64,000 nt of DNA from Enorma phocaeensis (GTDB lineage: Bacteria; Actinomycetota; Coriobacteriia; Coriobacteriales; Coriobacteriaceae). The stretch spans positions 1 through 64,000 of the forward strand of contig NZ_JACJKQ010000005.1 in assembly GCF_016901575.1 (NCBI RefSeq), in the 5' to 3' direction. The notes beneath the pieces were generated by a model. It ran no database searches and had not been told where the DNA came from. It worked only from the letters and a program-made list of their open reading frames with translations. Shown piece by piece: positions 2,745 through 18,981 of this stretch; within the stretch, counting starts at the first letter, position 1; each line of letters starts with the position of its first letter. A program made the translations under genes and the position numbers.

Positions 2745-2807
2745 GAGCTGGTCCTTTCGACGGAGCGCCGCGTGGGGCGGCGTGCGTGCTTCTCGCATCG
2801 GCCGAGG

Positions 2808-3968
2808 TCAGCCGGAGCGATTGTCCTTTGGGATGGAGGCAAAGACGGCAAAGCCTTCGCTCGGGCGCGGCCCGGCGGAGAAGGTGCCTCCAAGAGCGCG
2901 GACGCGCTCCTCCATGGACGTAAGGCCAAGGCCCGTGGAGGTGGCAAACGCCGCGGCGTCGCCTGCGCTGGCCGGGGGCGTCGCGGCGCGCTCGGAGCTG
3001 CCGTTGTCGGCAATCGAGAGCCTCCAGAACCCCGGATGCTCGACGAGCGATAGCTCGATGCGGCTGGCGTCGCTGTGGCGAGCGACGTTTGAGAGGGCCT
3101 CGCGCGTTACGGCGACCAGGCAGTTTGCAACGGCGGCTGGGGCTGCTTCGACCTGTATGGTGGAGCTGACGGGACAGGGCGCGCCCTCAAGCGTCGCGCG
3201 CATCTGCGCGGCGAGGTCGATGCTGTCGTCGTGAAGGTCATGCACGCTTGCGCGCACGGTGTCGAGCGCTTCGTTCAGGGTCGCCCCAATTTGGGAAAAC
3301 GCCTCGCACGTGTCGGGCTCTTCCGCGTGGAGCACCTGCTGGGCCTGGGTCTGCAGGATGGAGCGCGTCAACAAGTGGCCCACATTGTCGTGGATGGACC
3401 GGGCGATGCGGGAGCGCTCCTCGAGAACCGCCACGCGAACCTGGTAGTCCTGGCGGTCCATGAGGTCGCGGTTCTTCTCCGCGAGAGACAGCGCCTGCTC
3501 GCGGAGGGCGTCTCGCTGGCGATGGTTGGCGCTTCGTTGCACCTCGACGTCGCGGGTGCGGGCCGCCATGAGCGCGGCGGCAAGGCAAAGCCCAGCAGAA
3601 AGCCCGCAGGCCAAAGGAGACGTCGAGCCGCCGGTGGCAGCGGCGGCGATCGGCGCCGCGCACATGAGGGCGCGGGCTGCGGGGCGCGGGAGGCTGCGTG
3701 CGGGTTCGGCGGCAGAGGCGTCATGCCCGCTCGGTCGGGCAAGGTCGTAGGCAGCAAGGGGCAAGAAGGGCAGCAGCGCCTGTGCAAACACCGCGGCAAC
3801 CGCATAGGCGATGGATGGCCACGCGCGTCGTCTCGGCGGAACGACCTCTCCAAGGCAGGCGGCGATGACGGCGACGAGCAGGGGCACCACGGAGGGCGCC
3901 TCGGCATCGAGCGCCGCCAAGGGCATGCAGCACAGCACGAGTGCGAGTTTGTCCATGAGTCGTTCCAT
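2808..3968 (-). CDS. Sensor histidine kinase (HisKA_3 type)
   Basis: Membrane histidine kinase of 386 residues, partner of the response regulator downstream. About four hydrophobic segments fill the first 135 residues. A dimerisation/phosphoacceptor helix follows with EERSRIARSIHDNVGH, phospho-accepting His193, and then a HATPase_c domain with the N-box EALSNVARHSDAS and a DNG motif. This is the DesK/LiaS-like class with little extracellular sensing domain, so it probably senses membrane state or a transported compound. The start is uncertain: an ATG four codons further in is possible, and a TACAAT -10-like hexamer lies only 7 bases upstream, so the message may be nearly leaderless. Confidence 0.9.
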   Translation of the reverse strand: MERLMDKLALVLCCMPLAALDAEAPSVVPLLVAVIAACLGEVVPPRRRAWPSIAYAVAAVFAQALLPFLPLAAYDLARPSGHDASAAEPARSLPRPAARALMCAAPIAAAATGGSTSPLACGLSAGLCLAAALMAARTRDVEVQRSANHRQRDALREQALSLAEKNRDLMDRQDYQVRVAVLEERSRIARSIHDNVGHLLTRSILQTQAQQVLHAEEPDTCEAFSQIGATLNEALDTVRASVHDLHDDSIDLAAQMRATLEGAPCPVSSTIQVEAAPAAVANCLVAVTREALSNVARHSDASRIELSLVEHPGFWRLSIADNGSSERAATPPASAGDAAAFATSTGLGLTSMEERVRALGGTFSAGPRPSEGFAVFASIPKDNRSG

Positions 3969-4041
3969 GTTCTCGATTGTATCGGTGCACCGCGCCGTTG
4001 GCTGTCAGGATGGCCGCTTCTCGCCGGTCCGCTCCCGAATC

Positions 4042-4148
4042 GTGACATTTGTCACGGGCCGCGGGGCCTCATGTGGCAAATGACTCGCCCCCCGCCTGCC
4101 AGGCTGTGACAAATCTCACTTCCGCGGCGTCGGCGCGCCCGGGACAAT
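4042..4148. promoter_or_regulatory. Paired operator-like palindromes between kinase and ABC genes
   Basis: GTGACATTTGTCAC (4042-4055) is a near-perfect palindrome, and a second copy GTGACAAATCTCAC lies at 4106-4119. The centres are 64 bases apart, about six helical turns. The second copy ends just where a -35 would lie for the GACAAT hexamer at 4143-4148, the layout of a class II activator site. They probably bind the neighbouring LuxR-type response regulator; this is inferred from position and symmetry. Confidence 0.6.
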
Positions 4149-4280
4149 GGTGACCGACAGAGGGGCTGCTCGCCCGTCCGAGCGGCGAGGCGATCGCGCC
4201 CGTGCGTCCGGGCATAAGGCCGTTCGCGTCCGCACGCCCAGGCGCATGCCGATTCGCCGCCGACTTCAGAGGAGGTTGTC

Positions 4281-10590: not shown

Positions 10591-11997
10591 ATGGGCATGA
10601 TCGTTTTTTCCATCGTCGCGACGCTGCTGCTCACCCTTCTCAACGGGTTCTTCTCCATGTCGGAGATGGCCCTGACCACGGCGAAGCGCGCCTCGCTTGA
10701 ACATGATGTCGAAGAGGGCGACCGCCGCGCCGCCCAGGCGCTCGAGCTCGCCGCCGATTCCACGGACTTTCTGGCCACCATCCAGGTCGCCATCACGCTC
10801 GTGGGCTTCTTCTCGGCGACGGTTTCGTCCAACACGCTCTCCGACCCGCTTGCGAGCTGGCTCGAGTCCTTTGGCGTCGCGCCGCTCACCGCGGTGGCGC
10901 CCGTGATCTCGCCCATCGTGATCACGCTCATCGTGTCGTATCTCTCCATCGTCATCGGCGAGCTCGTTCCCAAGCGCATCGGCTTGTCGGACGCCGAGGG
11001 CATGGCAAAGTCCGTCGCCGGCACCATCATGGTGTTCCGCCGCATCGCCAAGCCGCTCGTGTGGCTCACCCAGGCAAGCGCCAACGGCATCAGCGCCGTC
11101 TTGGGCATCAAGAGCGCCGACGACCGCCAGAACGTCTCCGAAGAAGAGATCAAATACATGGTTTCGGAGCAGGATACGCTGCTCGACGAGGAGAAGCGCA
11201 TGATCCACGAGATCTTCGACCTGGGCGACGCCGTTGCGCGCGAGGTCATGGTTCCGCGCGTGGATGTGACCATGGCGGAGGACACCGATACGGTGGAAGA
11301 GGTGCTCGACGTCATGCGCCGCACGGGCTATTCGCGCATCCCTGTCTACCATGAGGATCCCGACTGCGTGACGGGCATCGCGCACATCAAGGATTTGATC
11401 GAGCTCGCGCTGTCGAGCGAGGGCAAGCATGCGGTGAAGGGGAGCCTGCGCGACGCCACCTTTGTGCCCGACACGAAGGATATCCTCCCCCTGCTTTCCG
11501 AGATGCAGACGGCTCACGAGCAGATGGTCGTGGTGGTCGATGAGTATGGCGGAACCGCTGGCGTGATCACCATCGAGGACATCGTCGAGGAGATCGTGGG
11601 CGAGATTGAGGACGAGTTCGACCCCGACAACAAGTACCTCACGCGCCTCTCGCGCCGCGAATGGCTTGTCGACGGACGCTTTTCCTGCGACGATGCTGTC
11701 GAGATGGGCTGGCCCATCGAGCTTTCGGACGACTACGAGACCATCGCCGGCTGGATTTTGGAAGTCTGCGACGGCGTTCCTAATATCGGAGAGATAATCG
11801 AAGCCGAGGGGTACAAGTTCAAGGTGCAGTCCATGCGCGGACAGCGCATCTCGCTGATTCGTGTCATCGCGCCTGTCGAGCAGGAGCGCCCCGAGGCGGC
11901 TCCCGACGTGGCGGATGCCGCAAAGGACGACCGCAAAGAGGGCGCCCGCCGCGAGAGCGCCCGCAAGGACGCCCAGGACGCACGCGCCGACAAATAG
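10591..11997 (+). CDS. HlyC/CorC family protein (CNNM + CBS + CorC)
   Basis: A 468-residue membrane protein. A CNNM (DUF21) domain with about four hydrophobic segments covers residues 1-190 (FFSMSEMALTTAKR, GELVPKRIGL). A tandem CBS pair follows (from REVMVPRVDV and through VVVVDEYGGTAGVITIEDIVEEIVGEIEDEFD), then a CorC_HlyC domain to about 435. The last 30 residues are charged and low-complexity. Family members export Mg2+ or Co2+ or control their efflux; older 'hemolysin' names are misleading. It lies 22 bases before the CphA-N-like gene, so the two are probably cotranscribed. Confidence 0.9.
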   Translation: MGMIVFSIVATLLLTLLNGFFSMSEMALTTAKRASLEHDVEEGDRRAAQALELAADSTDFLATIQVAITLVGFFSATVSSNTLSDPLASWLESFGVAPLTAVAPVISPIVITLIVSYLSIVIGELVPKRIGLSDAEGMAKSVAGTIMVFRRIAKPLVWLTQASANGISAVLGIKSADDRQNVSEEEIKYMVSEQDTLLDEEKRMIHEIFDLGDAVAREVMVPRVDVTMAEDTDTVEEVLDVMRRTGYSRIPVYHEDPDCVTGIAHIKDLIELALSSEGKHAVKGSLRDATFVPDTKDILPLLSEMQTAHEQMVVVVDEYGGTAGVITIEDIVEEIVGEIEDEFDPDNKYLTRLSRREWLVDGRFSCDDAVEMGWPIELSDDYETIAGWILEVCDGVPNIGEIIEAEGYKFKVQSMRGQRISLIRVIAPVEQERPEAAPDVADAAKDDRKEGARRESARKDAQDARADK

Positions 11998-12688: not shown

Positions 12689-12826
12689 TGCTGCACGTGA
12701 ATCCCCGATGCGGTTGGCTCCCCGCGCCGATTCCGCCGTTTGCAGGGGCGTGGGCGTGTCGCTGCGTCTTCCGGGTATAATGTGGAACCATCCTTAACGT
12801 CAATCCTCACACGGGAGGGAATAGAC

Positions 12827-13210
12827 ATGGGCAAGACTTTTAGCTTTGTCGTGGGCGCCGCGCTCGGTGCCGCCGCCGGCACCATCGTCGGAATCCTGGT
12901 AGCCCCGCGCTCGGGCGCCGAGACCCGCGCCATGGCAGCCGATATGGCCAACGATGCATGGGATAACGCTCGCGACATGTACGAGCAGGGCGCAGAGCAG
13001 GCTCGCGCCGCCGTCAGCGACTTCGGCCCCATGGTCGACGCCAAGACCGATGAGCTTCGCGCCAAGGTCGACCTTGCCCGCGAGCGCATGGACCAGCTCC
13101 GCGAGACCCTCAACGAGGCCGTGTCCGGCGGCAACGTGACGCCCGCCGTGGACGTCGAGGTCGAGTTCGCCGATCCCGTGAAGGACGCTGCCGCCTCTGT
13201 CGAGGTCTAA
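12827..13210 (+). CDS. YtxH-domain protein
   Basis: A 127-residue protein with an N-terminal glycine/alanine-rich hydrophobic helix (VVGAALGAAAGTIVGILVAPRSG, residues 5-27) of the YtxH type, followed by a long amphipathic helical region of YtxH/late-embryogenesis-like composition. It is probably anchored at the membrane with a helical cytoplasmic tail. A TATAAT -10 box lies at 12776-12781 and GGGAGGG precedes the ATG. The stop overlaps the next start (TAATG), so the PRC-barrel gene is translationally coupled. Function unknown. Confidence 0.8.
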   Translation: MGKTFSFVVGAALGAAAGTIVGILVAPRSGAETRAMAADMANDAWDNARDMYEQGAEQARAAVSDFGPMVDAKTDELRAKVDLARERMDQLRETLNEAVSGGNVTPAVDVEVEFADPVKDAAASVEV

Positions 13211-13971
13211 TGCGCGCACACGACTTCCAAGGGCTCAAGGTGTACCGCGCCGTGCCCAAAGACAAGCAGACGCGTAAAGACGGCACGCCGCGCGACCCTC
13301 GCAAGCTGGGACGTATCCATTTTCCGGTGTTCACCGCCGACGGCATGCGCATGGTCGGCTTCATGGTCACCCCGCCCGATGTGGTGGGCATGATCAAGCA
13401 GCCCGACCGCTTCGTCGCCTTCGACGCGCTTTCGGTATACGAGGGCGTGTTCGTCGTCGCCGACGACAAGGGCTCCTATGACAAGGCCGCTGCCAAGCGG
13501 TTGGGAATCGACCTGGATGCCTGCATCATCTGGTGCGGCATGGACGTGGTCACCACGTCGGGCAAGAAGTTGGGATACTGCGAGGACGCAGACTTCAACC
13601 CCAAGACCGGCAAGGTGAAGAGCTTCTTCATCACGGCCGGTGTCACCGCGACCGCGTTGCTGGGCAACATCGAGATGCCCGCCAGCTACCTGCGCGGCTA
13701 TCGAGAGGGCGCCATGGTGGTCGCCGACGAGGCCGCCTCGCTCGAGGTGTCGGGCGGCATGGCCGCCAAGGCGGCCGAGGCGAGCGTGGTGATCGGCGAC
13801 AAGGTGAAGAAGGGCGCCCAGAAGTTCGACGAGAAGGGGTCGGCCGCCGTCGACAAGGGGAGCCGCGCCCTGGGCAAGCAGCTTGGCAAGACGCGTGGCA
13901 TGTTCTCCGCCTTTAAGGACGAGTTCAAGAAGGCCGCGGGTCCTGCGCCCAAAAAGACAAGTAAGAAATAG
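13210..13971 (+). CDS. PRC-barrel domain protein
   Basis: A 253-residue soluble protein. The first 180 residues contain two beta-rich PRC-barrel-like units (LGRIHFPVFTADGMRMVGFMV and TTSGKKLGYCEDADFNPKTGKVKSFFI). The tail (about 185-253) is a lysine-rich helical region that resembles the tail of the coupled YtxH protein. The coupling suggests a shared membrane-surface or RNA/nucleoid-associated role. I do not recognise a specific function. Confidence 0.75.
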   Translation: MRAHDFQGLKVYRAVPKDKQTRKDGTPRDPRKLGRIHFPVFTADGMRMVGFMVTPPDVVGMIKQPDRFVAFDALSVYEGVFVVADDKGSYDKAAAKRLGIDLDACIIWCGMDVVTTSGKKLGYCEDADFNPKTGKVKSFFITAGVTATALLGNIEMPASYLRGYREGAMVVADEAASLEVSGGMAAKAAEASVVIGDKVKKGAQKFDEKGSAAVDKGSRALGKQLGKTRGMFSAFKDEFKKAAGPAPKKTSKK

Positions 13972-15438: not shown

Positions 15439-15588
15439 CGCACGGCCGCGCGGGCGCCGCATGCCGGTCATGTGCGCGCGGCGCCCATGGGGGCCTCGTG
15501 TCTCGCGGGCCGCGGCGGCGCGCCATATGTGGGCCCATCGGCGGGGCATAGGTTCAAAATGGCGGGTGCCGTGCGCGCCCGCACCTGT

Positions 15589-15626
15589 TATAGTATGGGC
15601 GGTTGTCGCGAGGCGACCGCTTTTTT
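15589..15626 (+). promoter_or_regulatory. Promoter-like box followed by an attenuator-like hairpin in the Mg-transport leader
   Basis: TATAGT (15589-15594) is a good -10 candidate. A hairpin follows at once: GCGG-TTG-TCGC (15599-15609), loop GAG, GCGA-CCGC (15613-15620), then TTTTTT (15621-15626), the form of an intrinsic terminator. It could be the terminator of the upstream gene or an attenuator in the 195-base leader of the MgtE-like gene. The remaining leader to 15821 is GC-rich and probably structured. I could not match it to the M-box. Confidence 0.5.
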
Positions 15627-15821
15627 GTAGGGCCTATCAGCAAAAGGATGCAAGGTGAAATCGAAACCTCGACCTCACAGTAGCTGACCCCTGCGGGTGC
15701 TCTCGGGGCGCGCGCACGGGGTTCTCCGGTGCGCAGGCGGGCACGGGTGCCGCGGCCTGACGCGCGTTCCAACAAGATCGTCCCGCTCAGGCGCGCATCG
15801 CCTGGGTGTCGAAGGAGCACC

Positions 15822-17729
15822 ATGAACTATCTATCTGAGATGCTCAAGCTGCCCGTCATCGATTCGAACGGGGAAGAGCTCGGCGTCGTCAACGACTTGG
15901 GCATCGCAACCGGCGAGGTCTTTCCCCATGTGACCTCGCTCGCCTTTCAGGGTCCCGCCAAGACCCCGTTCATGATCTCGTGGCGAAAATACGTCGACCA
16001 CTTTGACAACACGGGCGTTTACCTGAAGACCCCTCAGACCGATGTCCGCTTCTCCTACCTGCAGCCCGACGAGGTGCTGCTGGCGCGCGACATCATGAAC
16101 AAGCAGATCGTCGACACGCAGGGCCTCAAGGTCGTCCGCGTAAACGACCTTAAACTCTCCGCCTCGGGCGAGAACCAGCTGCGTCTGCTTGGCGCCGAGG
16201 TCGGTGCCCGCGGCTTGCTGCGCGCCCTGCATCCTGCTCTCGAGCGCGTGGCGTCGCGCATCGCGAAGCTCGTGGGCAAACCCCTGCCCGAGCACATCAT
16301 CGCCTGGTCGTACATGGACCTGCTCGAGCGCAGCACCCAGCAGATCAAGCTCTCGGTATCGCACAAGACGCTTGACGAGCTGCACCCTGCCGACATCGCC
16401 GACATCATCGAGCAGCTTGACCCGCGCCTGCGCGGCGAGGTCTTTGCCCAGCTCGACACCGCCCAGGCGGCAGAGGCCATCAGCGAGTTCGACGACGACG
16501 AGCTTGTCGCCGAGGTGCTCGAGGGCATGAGCGACCGCGACGCGTCGTCGATGCTGGCACTCATGGACCCCGATGACGCCGTCGCCCTCATCGAGGAGCT
16601 CGACTACGAAAAGGCCGAGAAGCTCCTGCGCCTCATGGGCGTCAAGGAGGAGCGTGCCATCCGCAACCTGCTTGGATACGAGGAAGATACCGCCGGCCGC
16701 ATCATGACCTCGGAGTTTGTGGCCCTGCCGGCGACGGCGACCGTCGCCGATGCCATCGAGGGCCTCCGCAAGCTCGACGAGGACTTCGAGAGCGTCTACT
16801 ACGTCTACACCACCGATCCCACCGGCGCCCTCACGGGCGTGCTCTCGCTGCGCACGCTCATCGTCGCCGACCACGACGCCCGCCTGGACAGCCTTGCCTA
16901 CCGAGACGTGGTGTGGGTGGCGCCCGACGTCGACCAGGAAGACGTCGCCGAGGAGATGTCGAAGTACAACCTTGCCGCCATGCCGGTGTGCGACGAGAAC
17001 CGTCATATCCTGGGCATCGTCACGGTGGACGACGCCATGGAGGTCATGAGCGAGGAGCACCAGGAAGACCTCCAGATCGCGGGCATGAGCTCTGGCGAGG
17101 GCGCGACGAGCGGCGAGTCGCTCCACGTGTTGTCATGGTTTGCCCACCGGCAGTACTGGCTGCTTGTATGGGCTGTCGCCTCGGGCATCGTGGCTGCGGT
17201 CCTGCAGTGGATGGGGGGCTTCGGCTCCTACTTCATCTATCCCATGTGCGTGATGCCCGCCGTGCTCATCGCATCGAGCCGAGCGGTGTCCTTCGTGCGG
17301 AACTTCTATCTCGAGTACGACGAATCCGATGACGAGGACGGTCCCTACCTGGGATTTTTCGTGCAGACAACGCTGGTCGGCCTCATCAGTGCCGTCGTGA
17401 TCTATCTGTGCGGCCAGCTGGTCTTGGGGGCCGCCTATCCCGACGAGGTGCTTTCGCAGATCAGCCCGCTTGCCCTGCCCTGGCAGGACACGGGGCTGGC
17501 CGACGCCTCGGCCCTTTCGGCCTGGGCGCTCTCCGCGTGCTTCGCCTGCGCCGCCGCGGTGACGTTCGTGAGCTGCGCCGCTTCGGTGATATATCTCAAG
17601 ATTCTCTTTTGGCGCGACGAGCACGACCGCAACACCTCGGGGACGGCCCTCAACGTCTCGGCGCTGCTCATCGCCTGCGTCCTGTATTCGGCGGCCTCCA
17701 CGCTCGCCATCTTCTGGCTGCTTGCCTAA
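15822..17729 (+). CDS. MgtE-type Mg2+-sensing module fused to an atypical membrane domain
   Basis: A 635-residue protein. Domain order: PRC-barrel-like N-terminus (about 1-90), MgtE_N helical superhelix (about 180-285, LHPADIADIIEQLDP...), CBS pair (about 290-415), then five or so hydrophobic segments (430-635). The first three parts match the Mg2+-sensing cytosolic half of MgtE. The membrane part does not show the MgtE pore signature GGNAG, so it may not be a channel itself. It is 13 bases upstream of an NRAMP-family gene, so it is probably a sensor or gate for that transporter. The ATG follows GAAGGAG; upstream in-frame residues look non-coding. Confidence 0.82.
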   Translation: MNYLSEMLKLPVIDSNGEELGVVNDLGIATGEVFPHVTSLAFQGPAKTPFMISWRKYVDHFDNTGVYLKTPQTDVRFSYLQPDEVLLARDIMNKQIVDTQGLKVVRVNDLKLSASGENQLRLLGAEVGARGLLRALHPALERVASRIAKLVGKPLPEHIIAWSYMDLLERSTQQIKLSVSHKTLDELHPADIADIIEQLDPRLRGEVFAQLDTAQAAEAISEFDDDELVAEVLEGMSDRDASSMLALMDPDDAVALIEELDYEKAEKLLRLMGVKEERAIRNLLGYEEDTAGRIMTSEFVALPATATVADAIEGLRKLDEDFESVYYVYTTDPTGALTGVLSLRTLIVADHDARLDSLAYRDVVWVAPDVDQEDVAEEMSKYNLAAMPVCDENRHILGIVTVDDAMEVMSEEHQEDLQIAGMSSGEGATSGESLHVLSWFAHRQYWLLVWAVASGIVAAVLQWMGGFGSYFIYPMCVMPAVLIASSRAVSFVRNFYLEYDESDDEDGPYLGFFVQTTLVGLISAVVIYLCGQLVLGAAYPDEVLSQISPLALPWQDTGLADASALSAWALSACFACAAAVTFVSCAASVIYLKILFWRDEHDRNTSGTALNVSALLIACVLYSAASTLAIFWLLA

Positions 17730-17742
17730 GGCGTGAGCAGGC

Positions 17743-18981
17743 ATGAAGGGGGATCATTCCAAACTCACGGCCGCCGCCGTGCTGGGGGCCATGGGGCCTG
17801 GGCTTTTGGCGGCGTTGTCAGGTAACGACGCGGGCGGCATCGCCACGTATTCGAGCGCGGGGGCGAGCTATGGGTATCAGACCCTATGGATCCTGCCCAT
17901 CATGGCGCTGCTGCTCATCGTGGTCCAAGAGACCGCGGCACGCTGTGGCTGCGTGACCGGCAAGGGGTTCGCCTCGCTCATCCGCGAGCGCTTCGGCGTG
18001 CGCCTGAGCGCCTTTGCCATGGGGGCGCTCCTGATCGCCAACACCGCCGTGACCATTTCCGAGTTTGCGGGCATCGCGAGCGGCCTGGCGCTCTTTGGCG
18101 TGCCTAAGACCATCTCGGTGCCGCTCATGGCCCTCGTCATCTGGCTGCTCACCATGTCTGGGAGCTTCAAGCGCATCGAAAAGGTACTCCTGGTGGTGAG
18201 CTGCGTGTTTGTGACCTATGTGGTCGCGGCTTTTCTTGCCGGGCCCTCGTGGGGCCAGGTTGTCGCCGCGACCGTCTCGCCGCACGCCGTCGCCGAGCCC
18301 GAGTATGTGTCGCTGCTTGTCGCGACGATCGGCACCACCATCGCCCCATGGATGATTTTTCTCGCCCAGAACAACGTGGTGGATAAAAACGTCGACGAGT
18401 CGGGCATCGTGCTTCAGCGCATCGATACCGTGACGGGGTCGGTCATCGCCTGCGCCATCGCCTGGTTCATCATCGTTACCACGGGCACCGTGCTCCACCC
18501 GGCAGGCATCGAGGTCTCCGACGCCGCGGACGCGGCGCTGGCGCTCGAGCCCATCGCGGGGGAGTTCTCGACCATCCTGTTTTCTGCCGGCCTTGTTGCG
18601 GCGAGCTTTCTCGCCGCCTGTGTGCTGCCGGGCGTCACCTCGTCGGCGATCTGTGAGGCATTTGGGTGGGAGCGCGGCGCCGACCGCACCTGGGAAGAGG
18701 CGCCCACCTATCGCGGCATCATAACGGGCGTCATCATGCTTTCCGGCATCTTGGTCATCCTGCCCGGTGTAGACCTTTTTGAAATCATGATGAGCGCGCA
18801 GGTGATCAACGGCGTGCTTTTGCCCGTGCTGCTCGTGTTTTTGGTGCTCGTGGCGCGCGACCGCCGCATCATGGGCGAATATCGCAACGGGCGGCTGTGG
18901 AACGTGCTCACCTGGGTGACCATCGTGCTCATCACCGTGCTCACCATATGCATGTTCGCGCTTCAGATGCTTGGGTTTTAA
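17743..18981 (+). CDS. NRAMP-family transporter, NRMT (magnesium) clade
   Basis: An 11-helix-type integral membrane protein of 412 residues in the NRAMP/SLC11 fold. The first-helix motif DPGN is DAGG (29-32), and the sixth-helix MPH motif is APW (201-203), so the metal-binding Met and His are lost. These replacements are those expected of the NRMT clade; the characterised member from Eggerthella lenta carries Mg2+ and Mn2+ without proton coupling. Genetic linkage to the MgtE-type sensor upstream supports Mg2+ uptake. Older annotation would call it a Mn2+/Fe2+ NRAMP. Confidence 0.85.
   Translation: MKGDHSKLTAAAVLGAMGPGLLAALSGNDAGGIATYSSAGASYGYQTLWILPIMALLLIVVQETAARCGCVTGKGFASLIRERFGVRLSAFAMGALLIANTAVTISEFAGIASGLALFGVPKTISVPLMALVIWLLTMSGSFKRIEKVLLVVSCVFVTYVVAAFLAGPSWGQVVAATVSPHAVAEPEYVSLLVATIGTTIAPWMIFLAQNNVVDKNVDESGIVLQRIDTVTGSVIACAIAWFIIVTTGTVLHPAGIEVSDAADAALALEPIAGEFSTILFSAGLVAASFLAACVLPGVTSSAICEAFGWERGADRTWEEAPTYRGIITGVIMLSGILVILPGVDLFEIMMSAQVINGVLLPVLLVFLVLVARDRRIMGEYRNGRLWNVLTWVTIVLITVLTICMFALQMLGF

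Follow-up and report, generated by a model that had tools for sequence, protein, structure and literature searches.

A putative Mg2+ uptake module in Enorma phocaeensis: an MgtE-derived sensor protein, an NRMT-type carrier and a short conserved leader peptide

No mechanism is known to us that would shut off NRMT-class Mg2+ carriers of bacteria, and two adjoining genes of Enorma phocaeensis raise the question whether one of them could provide it. The genes lie in a 64,000-nucleotide stretch (positions 1 to 64,000 of contig NZ_JACJKQ010000005.1, assembly GCF_016901575.1), which is called the window below. Gene A encodes a protein with cytosolic domains of MgtE type followed by a membrane domain, and gene B encodes an NRMT-type carrier (Table 1). 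The interpretation that we favour, and consider probable, is a two-gene Mg2+ uptake module in which the gene A protein acts as Mg2+-dependent regulatory subunit of the carrier. Gene B would supply a proton-independent SLC11 carrier admitting hydrated Mg2+. The MgtE_N-CBS-plug part of gene A would sense cytosolic Mg2+, its decayed five-helix domain would serve as membrane anchor or contact surface, and the sensor would most likely hold the carrier back at high cytosolic Mg2+. A leader peptide encoded upstream would probably also tune the synthesis of both proteins via the behaviour of the ribosome at the leader end. By analogy, the gating apparatus of MgtE would have been moved into a separate protein serving another carrier.

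The carrier, the sensor and its membrane domain

Gene B gave a Pfam match to Nramp (PF01566, 3.3e-87), and its best solved relative was EleNRMT of Eggerthella lenta (7qia; 1.9e-148, ~56% identity). NRMTs are recognized by DxxG in helix 1 and by TxxA instead of DxxN and A/CxxM (PMC8806188). Gene B carries D-A-G-G in helix 1 and T-T-I-A-P-W in helix 6, which is the NRMT signature; an earlier sequence-only reading of the window had pointed out an NRMT with DAGG and APW motifs 13 bases downstream of gene A, and this was confirmed. Among 86 homologues from the class Coriobacteriia (the class, below) the D and the G were found in 85, the T in all 86 and the A in 78. The His pair of helix 6b is replaced in gene B (APW...QNN; Trp and Asn in EleNRMT), and at the Trp position the class homologues have W (78/86) or Y (8/86). 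Judged by sequence, gene B is an NRMT. Assignment as a proton-coupled MntH was rejected: PRK00701 scored 152 bits, and its cut-off is 430. Mg2+ transport has been proven for EleNRMT (PMC8806188), and by analogy with it gene B would transport Mg2+ without proton coupling.

The gene A protein contains the MgtE_N domain and the CBS pair that are expected of an MgtE channel, in agreement with the MgtE-type Mg2+-sensing half described in the sequence-only reading. Its closest solved relatives are MgtE structures. The family model TIGR00400 (mgtE) aligned with residues 176-462 and scored 213.6 bits, short of the 232.75 that it requires. Comparison with the Mg2+ ligands listed for MgtE (PMC5882242) showed that E59, D91, D95, D226, D247, D250, E258 and D259 correspond to E, D, A, N, D, E, E and D in the window protein. 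In the alignment with MgtE, the equivalents of D91 and D247 were acidic in all class sensors. The plug residues E258/D259 were kept in 72/72 five-helix paired sensors, counted in three groups, and were mostly altered in sensors with one helix and in sensors linked to MgtA. This pattern of residues makes Mg2+ binding by the sensor likely. No literature was found on the combination of PRC, MgtE and CBS domains in one protein.

The membrane domain of gene A had no direct Pfam match to the MgtE membrane domain (PF01769, cut-off 27.6 bits), and a profile built from Coriobacteriaceae only showed no detectable link to true MgtE, defined here by a strong PF01769 match (E 0.19). Because both searches failed, deeper orthologues were needed to make the connection. 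Deep-branching orthologues of gene A match PF01769 just above the cut-off, and an NRMT-paired orthologue from outside the class (L158) reaches 61.6 bits. When the membrane domains of 77 class sensors were combined in a profile, it aligned end to end with true MgtE over 163 columns (probability 97%, E 7e-11 in a single comparison). The structure model of the window domain has five long helices (pLDDT 90). In a Foldseek search of 350,542 PDB chains the three best matches of the isolated domain were to the MgtE membrane domain (4u9l/4u9n; probability 0.96-0.99, E 0.1-0.2), a result that counts by rank only because the E-values are weak (0.1). With the full-length model the best structural match was full-length MgtE (2zy9, 6e-20). 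Since orthologue matches, profile alignment and the top matches of the model all led to MgtE, the domain is, by homology and predicted fold, a decayed MgtE channel.

What has decayed is the pore. The motif GGNxG[ST]Q and the Asp of TM5 (D432 of T. thermophilus) are present in 21/21 true MgtEs of the class (the N of the motif in 20/21) and in 0/77 class sensors with the domain, the window protein included. Mean identity between sensors is 0.29 in the membrane domain vs 0.63 in the cytosolic part; the corresponding values for true MgtE are 0.45 and 0.48. The sequence-only reading had correctly noticed that the pore motif was missing; the domain is, however, not unrelated to MgtE but a degenerate form of its channel domain. 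The same reading had named a complete channel in this place as a finding that would overturn it, and a domain without pore residues was found instead. Gene A is thus, as far as its sequence tells, an MgtE descendant that fails the pore test, and we do not class it as an MgtE channel. We consider it very improbable that the domain still works as a channel, through another filter, and that the pair represents two parallel uptake routes. The five-helix MgtE fold predicted with high confidence and the persistence of orphan five-helix sensors would agree with such a role, but the pore residues are lost without exception, and the domain evolves fast and has been cut to one helix at least twice.

Conservation of the pair and other partners of the sensor

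The distribution of the two genes was determined in a sample of 298 class genomes; counts of co-occurrence are hand tallies of strong matches, with kinship ignored. Strong sensor matches were found in 247/298 and strong carrier matches in 241/298 genomes. Both genes occurred in 238, the sensor alone in nine (G171, G227, G008, G011, G020, G038, G029, G026, G032) and the carrier alone in three, all of them incomplete assemblies. When gene order was checked in 70 class loci fetched from many families, the carrier directly followed the sensor in 68, at a distance of about -4 to +30 bases where both starts were clear. A separate scan of named genomes gave 80 loci, nearly all of the class to judge by record title (Collinsella, Enorma, Atopobium, Olsenella, Slackia and others), and the carrier was present in every locus with room downstream; one locus ends at a contig edge. 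Adjacency in 68/70 fetched loci and in every scanned locus with downstream room indicates that the pair is not a chance arrangement, and the lack of conservation that the sequence-only reading had named as its possible undoing did not occur. Outside the class, pairs were found in other Actinomycetota and on an Alicyclobacillus plasmid. In the plasmid search the carrier of Alicyclobacillus fastidiosus was paired with a soluble sensor, and the Haloarcula and Polaromonas plasmid hits had no sensor beside the carrier.

True MgtE was detected in 23/298 class genomes, and only three of these (G051, G053, G077) also have the pair. In one genus of family f3, a single genome (G251) has MgtE and no pair, and the other listed members show the reverse. 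In the window genome MgtE is missing; it has two CorA matches, a single Nramp, which is gene B, and no MgtA match above the cut-off. The rarity of coexistence fits replacement of MgtE by the pair.

Some genomes of the class lack parts of the module. At the locus of G171 (L034) the sensor is retained, but no NRMT gene stands between it and the gene that follows; the leader ORF is missing too, and the promoter-like element stays. Four genomes of genus g5 in the family of the window genome (G114, G187, G219, G257) are the only members of the family sample without sensor, carrier and leader; no MgtA above the cut-off was found in the three of them that were tested. A record titled Alloscardovia omnicolens DSM 21503 (L275) contains a coriobacterial-type sensor, possibly through mislabelling or contamination.

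The membrane part of the sensor comes in grades. Five-helix sensors are the prevailing type and have a basal position within the class clade of the tree. A single C-terminal helix is all that is left in Eggerthellaceae-type genomes and, separately, in two further lineages (L106, L116), so that the one-helix state has at least two origins on the tree. In three genomes (G068, G027, G088) the carrier closely resembles EleNRMT along the entire alignment, and a one-helix sensor is encoded directly upstream. Some membrane segment is retained beside NRMT throughout the class set examined; outside the class soluble sensors pair with NRMT, and the membrane part is absent from many such pairs. As the membrane part can be reduced to one helix, or be missing, beside NRMT, the pore is by this comparison not the feature under conservation. 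The sequence-only reading had suggested that the sensor may gate the carrier by direct contact; contact through the five-helix domain cannot be general, since EleNRMT-like carriers adjoin sensors with one helix and many pairs outside the class lack the membrane part. In a group of loci (L159-L165, L168, L174) five-helix sensors with a dead MgtE domain have no NRMT nearby and mostly stand beside a gene resembling D-Ala-D-Ala carboxypeptidase.

The same sensor was also found attached to a different Mg2+ importer. Two actinobacterial genomes (G517, G479) contain a 1318-aa ORF in which the sensor (residues 1-412) is followed by a Mg2+-translocating P-type ATPase (TIGR01524, 1099 and 1077 bits, cut-off 611). 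In two class genomes without NRMT (G026, G032) the gene for a soluble sensor immediately follows one for MgtA. MgtA scored above the cut-off in 8/9 sensor-only genomes. Because one sensor attaches to two unrelated Mg2+ importers, it is best read, on comparative grounds, as a regulatory subunit.

Pairs of this kind were described in 2014 by Shin et al., who reported that most NrmT genes adjoin a gene homologous to the cytosolic domain of MgtE and proposed for the partner either cytoplasmic feedback on transport or a role as chaperone (PMC4072509). They also expressed both genes of the Acidobacterium capsulatum pair together in a B. subtilis strain defective in Mg2+ uptake (PMC4072509). The pair itself is therefore already known and partly tested, and the statement of the sequence-only reading that it knew of no experimental work on such a pair was wrong.

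Several observations weigh against a regulatory subunit of a Mg2+ carrier. In the experiment of Shin et al. the partner gave no extra rescue, and the A. capsulatum carrier looked like a Mn2+ carrier (PMC4072509); because rescue occurred without the partner, the experiment shows that the sensor is not required for transport. In the window sensor two equivalents of MgtE Mg2+ ligands are altered (D95 to A, D226 to N). Sensors without NRMT occur in G171, G227, five f9 and two f10 genomes, and a group recognized at the level of the phylum has a five-helix sensor with no NRMT adjoining.

Two further explanations were weighed against this background. The sensor might sense Mg2+ without touching the carrier, acting as a buffer, as a chaperone or on some other partner, and share the operon since both proteins are needed at low Mg2+. 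We regard this as unlikely, with some arguments in its favour: sensors without NRMT exist, the soluble relative in Actinomycetes sits by a DUF1003 membrane protein, and a chaperone role was raised by Shin et al. (PMC4072509). However, gene order is almost invariant in the class, the fusion to a Mg2+ pump argues for action on the transporter itself, and a membrane segment is retained next to NRMT throughout the class set examined. The actinomycete loci in question (L176, L178) encode a soluble PRC/MgtE_N/CBS protein. The other explanation, that Mn2+ or some other divalent metal is both the main substrate of the carrier and the signal for the sensor, appears improbable. It has the A. capsulatum NrmT as precedent (PMC4072509), and gene B is the only Nramp of the window genome, but DAGG and TTIAPW match EleNRMT, a Mg2+ mover (PMC8806188), and the near mutual exclusion with MgtE fits Mg2+.

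A sensor acting as regulatory subunit would give a role to the MgtE-like neighbour that Shin et al. left unexplained. The loss of the pore with the sensing residues mostly kept, the one-helix form beside carriers of EleNRMT type and the fusion to MgtA together make the idea of a portable Mg2+ regulatory subunit directly testable, because both a purification and an assay of the EleNRMT carrier already exist. The leader peptide offers a second, independent handle: it is very short, and its residues near the stop codon are kept across the class.

A short leader peptide upstream of the sensor gene

The conserved leader ORF that lies 135 bases upstream of gene A was missed by the sequence-only reading. 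It encodes VKSKPRPHSS (Table 1), and members of the family are 6-11 aa long. An A-G-rich stretch is found 8-12 bases before the leader start in all aligned relatives. In an alignment of 31 loci (26 distinct sequences) codon changes were mostly synonymous, and TGA, TAA and TAG were all used as stop. The leader was first considered as a pure RNA element; this was largely set aside in favour of a peptide because the residues stay while codons and stop codons vary. When judged as translated short leader ORFs of the mgtL type are, the leader has the conservation pattern of a coding ORF.

Coriobacteriaceae and many Atopobiaceae have the pattern KPRP[HY]S in a single copy, located 60-190 bases ahead of the sensor gene; elsewhere there were few stray matches, and a reversed-pattern control rarely matched. 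Two leader patterns together were found in 49/49 pair-bearing Coriobacteriaceae genomes and in 0/5 lacking NRMT. The leader reads MKPRPHSR-stop in Atopobiaceae, MKVRKPKPHS[ML]-stop in Eggerthellaceae-type genomes, and HPHSC-, KPHSP- or RPFSR-stop in others. Loci were scored for P-[HYF]-S-x(1-3)-stop plus a ribosome-binding site, a motif fixed after several of the scored groups had been inspected, the HPHSx group being one not inspected beforehand; strains and close species are over-represented in the counts. By this rule 51/51 Coriobacteriaceae loci had the leader, as had 46/55, 4/9, 8/12 and 8/26 loci of other class groups, and it was absent from the sensors without NRMT (0/7) and from loci outside the class (0/22), with a shuffled background of at most 0.2%. 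One genome without NRMT (G227) has the leader. Conservation of the residues adjacent to the stop codon suggests an event at or near translation termination.

Several RNA features surround the leader. An element resembling TGnTATAGT is kept ahead of it in most aligned Coriobacteriaceae; a simple sigma-70 scan found no promoter, and so the element is proposed on conservation alone. The 60 bases past the leader stop have a mean folding energy of -26.7 kcal/mol, calculated for native sequences only. The Rfam scan detected no family in the window or the leader region, the M-box riboswitch (RF00380) included, and no Rfam element in five related leaders; two weak hits, far under the cut-off, lie elsewhere in those loci. 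In four Eggerthellaceae-type loci (L054, L058, L059, L062) the operon is preceded by the apparent 3' end of a tRNA gene.

The leader may have been kept as an RNA structure or as an attenuator for a signal unrelated to Mg2+, such as an amino acid, arginine/proline charging or a ribosome inhibitor, and we take this to be a serious possibility, though short of an even one. Pro, Arg and Lys are abundant in the peptide, and some of its codons are rare: CGA makes up 10/130 Arg codons in seven window genes, yet it is invariant in the leader. The stop region pairs with upstream sequence in 34/81 cases vs 4 on swapping, which lends moderate support. On the other side, the peptide is retained while its codons and stop codons change, and it is a single-copy feature, always ahead of this operon, that Coriobacteriaceae genomes without the pair lack. 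From this position before a putative Mg2+ operon, and by analogy with mgtL, in which low Mg2+ favours ribosome drop-off (PMC11282234), the leader would sense Mg2+. Apidaecin traps release factors at stop codons (PMC11549390), and the resemblance of the P-R-P leader peptides to it is only a lead. We put forward more tentatively, as a rather doubtful extension of the regulatory-subunit interpretation, a control in two layers. A pore-dead MgtE would be a dedicated Mg2+-dependent NRMT subunit, an instance of a portable sensor that also serves MgtA and is sometimes fused to it, and a class-wide P-H-S-x-stop leader causing arrest or drop-off would couple ribosome behaviour, and hence Mg2+, to expression.

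Table 1. Features of the locus and of related loci. Positions refer to the window unless a locus is named.
Feature	Position	Strand	Basis
Extended -10-like promoter element TGTTATAGT	15586..15594	+	conservation only
Shine-Dalgarno-like AAAAGG of leader ORF	15642..15647	+	A-G-rich stretch
Leader ORF GTG AAA TCG AAA CCT CGA CCT CAC AGT AGC TGA, VKSKPRPHSS* / (M)KSKPRPHSS-stop	15655..15687	+	codon pattern, conservation
G+C-rich hairpin (CCCC...GGGG) right after leader stop	15688..15721	+	CCCC/GGGG arms in many relatives
Gene A, sensor protein, 635 aa, PRC + MgtE_N + 2 CBS + membrane domain	15822..17729	+	ORF, ATG 15822, TAA 17727-17729
PRC-barrel match, residues 2-32	15825..15917	+	Pfam PF05239, 1.3e-6
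MgtE_N domain, residues 187-289	16380..16688	+	Pfam PF03448, 5.7e-25
Tandem CBS region, residues ~290-410	16689..17051	+	Pfam PF00571, two stretches, 5.1e-17
Plug-helix-like connector, residues ~411-434	17052..17123	+	E258, D259 equivalents retained
Degenerate 5-helix MgtE channel domain, residues 435-635, pore residues gone	17124..17726	+	homology, structure model
Gene B, NRMT-type Mg2+ carrier, 412 aa	17743..18981	+	ATG 17743; homology, motifs
Sensor-ATPase fusions, actinobacterial genomes	L156:1281-5234; L157:1293-5246	-	in-frame, 1318 aa
Soluble sensor downstream of MgtA-type ATPase gene, NRMT-less class genome	L115:1501-2739 with 2763-4229	-	
Soluble sensor downstream of MgtA-type ATPase gene, NRMT-less class genome	L117:811-2070	+	

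Upstream of the operon the window contains, at a distance of 4 kb, a gene for a CNNM/CorC-type protein of a Mg2+-linked family (CNNM, CBS and CorC_HlyC domains; 10591-11997, + strand). It also contains a YtxH-like gene and a second PRC-barrel gene (12824-13971, + strand). Similar YtxH-like/PRC genes adjoin the sensor in distant class members (L115:640-1422, L117:2073-3567), and the two may, from their location, be part of the same neighbourhood.

Comparison with known systems

The literature searched describes neither the dead-channel anatomy with its graded loss nor the association with MgtA nor the leader peptide, and these appear to be new. The nearest relatives of the locus are the operons of Shin et al. 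(PMC4072509), with which it shares an NRMT gene directly after a gene for the cytosolic domain of MgtE. For the MgtE-like fragment of those operons, homology is described with the cytosolic domain alone, and M-box riboswitches control the Mg2+ members; here, in contrast, the sensor has an added PRC segment and the remains of an MgtE channel domain, the Rfam scan gave no M-box, and a leader peptide lies ahead. EleNRMT (7qia) shares with gene B the DAGG and TTIAPW motifs, the equivalent of Glu133 and ~56% identity, whereas in genomes with EleNRMT-like carriers the upstream sensor has one helix instead of five. The searched text of the EleNRMT study (PMC8806188) does not mention the neighbouring gene and contains neither 'operon' nor 'CBS'. 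MgtE of T. thermophilus (2yvx/2zy9/4u9l) has the same order of MgtE_N, CBS pair, plug and five helices and most of the gating ligands; gene A differs from it by the lost pore motif and TM5 Asp, by the extra N-terminal PRC, and in that it would work beside another transporter. MgtA-type P-type ATPases are fused or adjacent to the same sensor in other lineages and absent from the window locus. The leader resembles mgtL, the leader of mgtA in Salmonella and E. coli, in being a short proline-containing ORF before a Mg2+ transporter gene. Unlike mgtL, which relies on an EPDP motif (PMC11282234), the window leader is free of an acidic motif, and its conserved part is at the stop codon.

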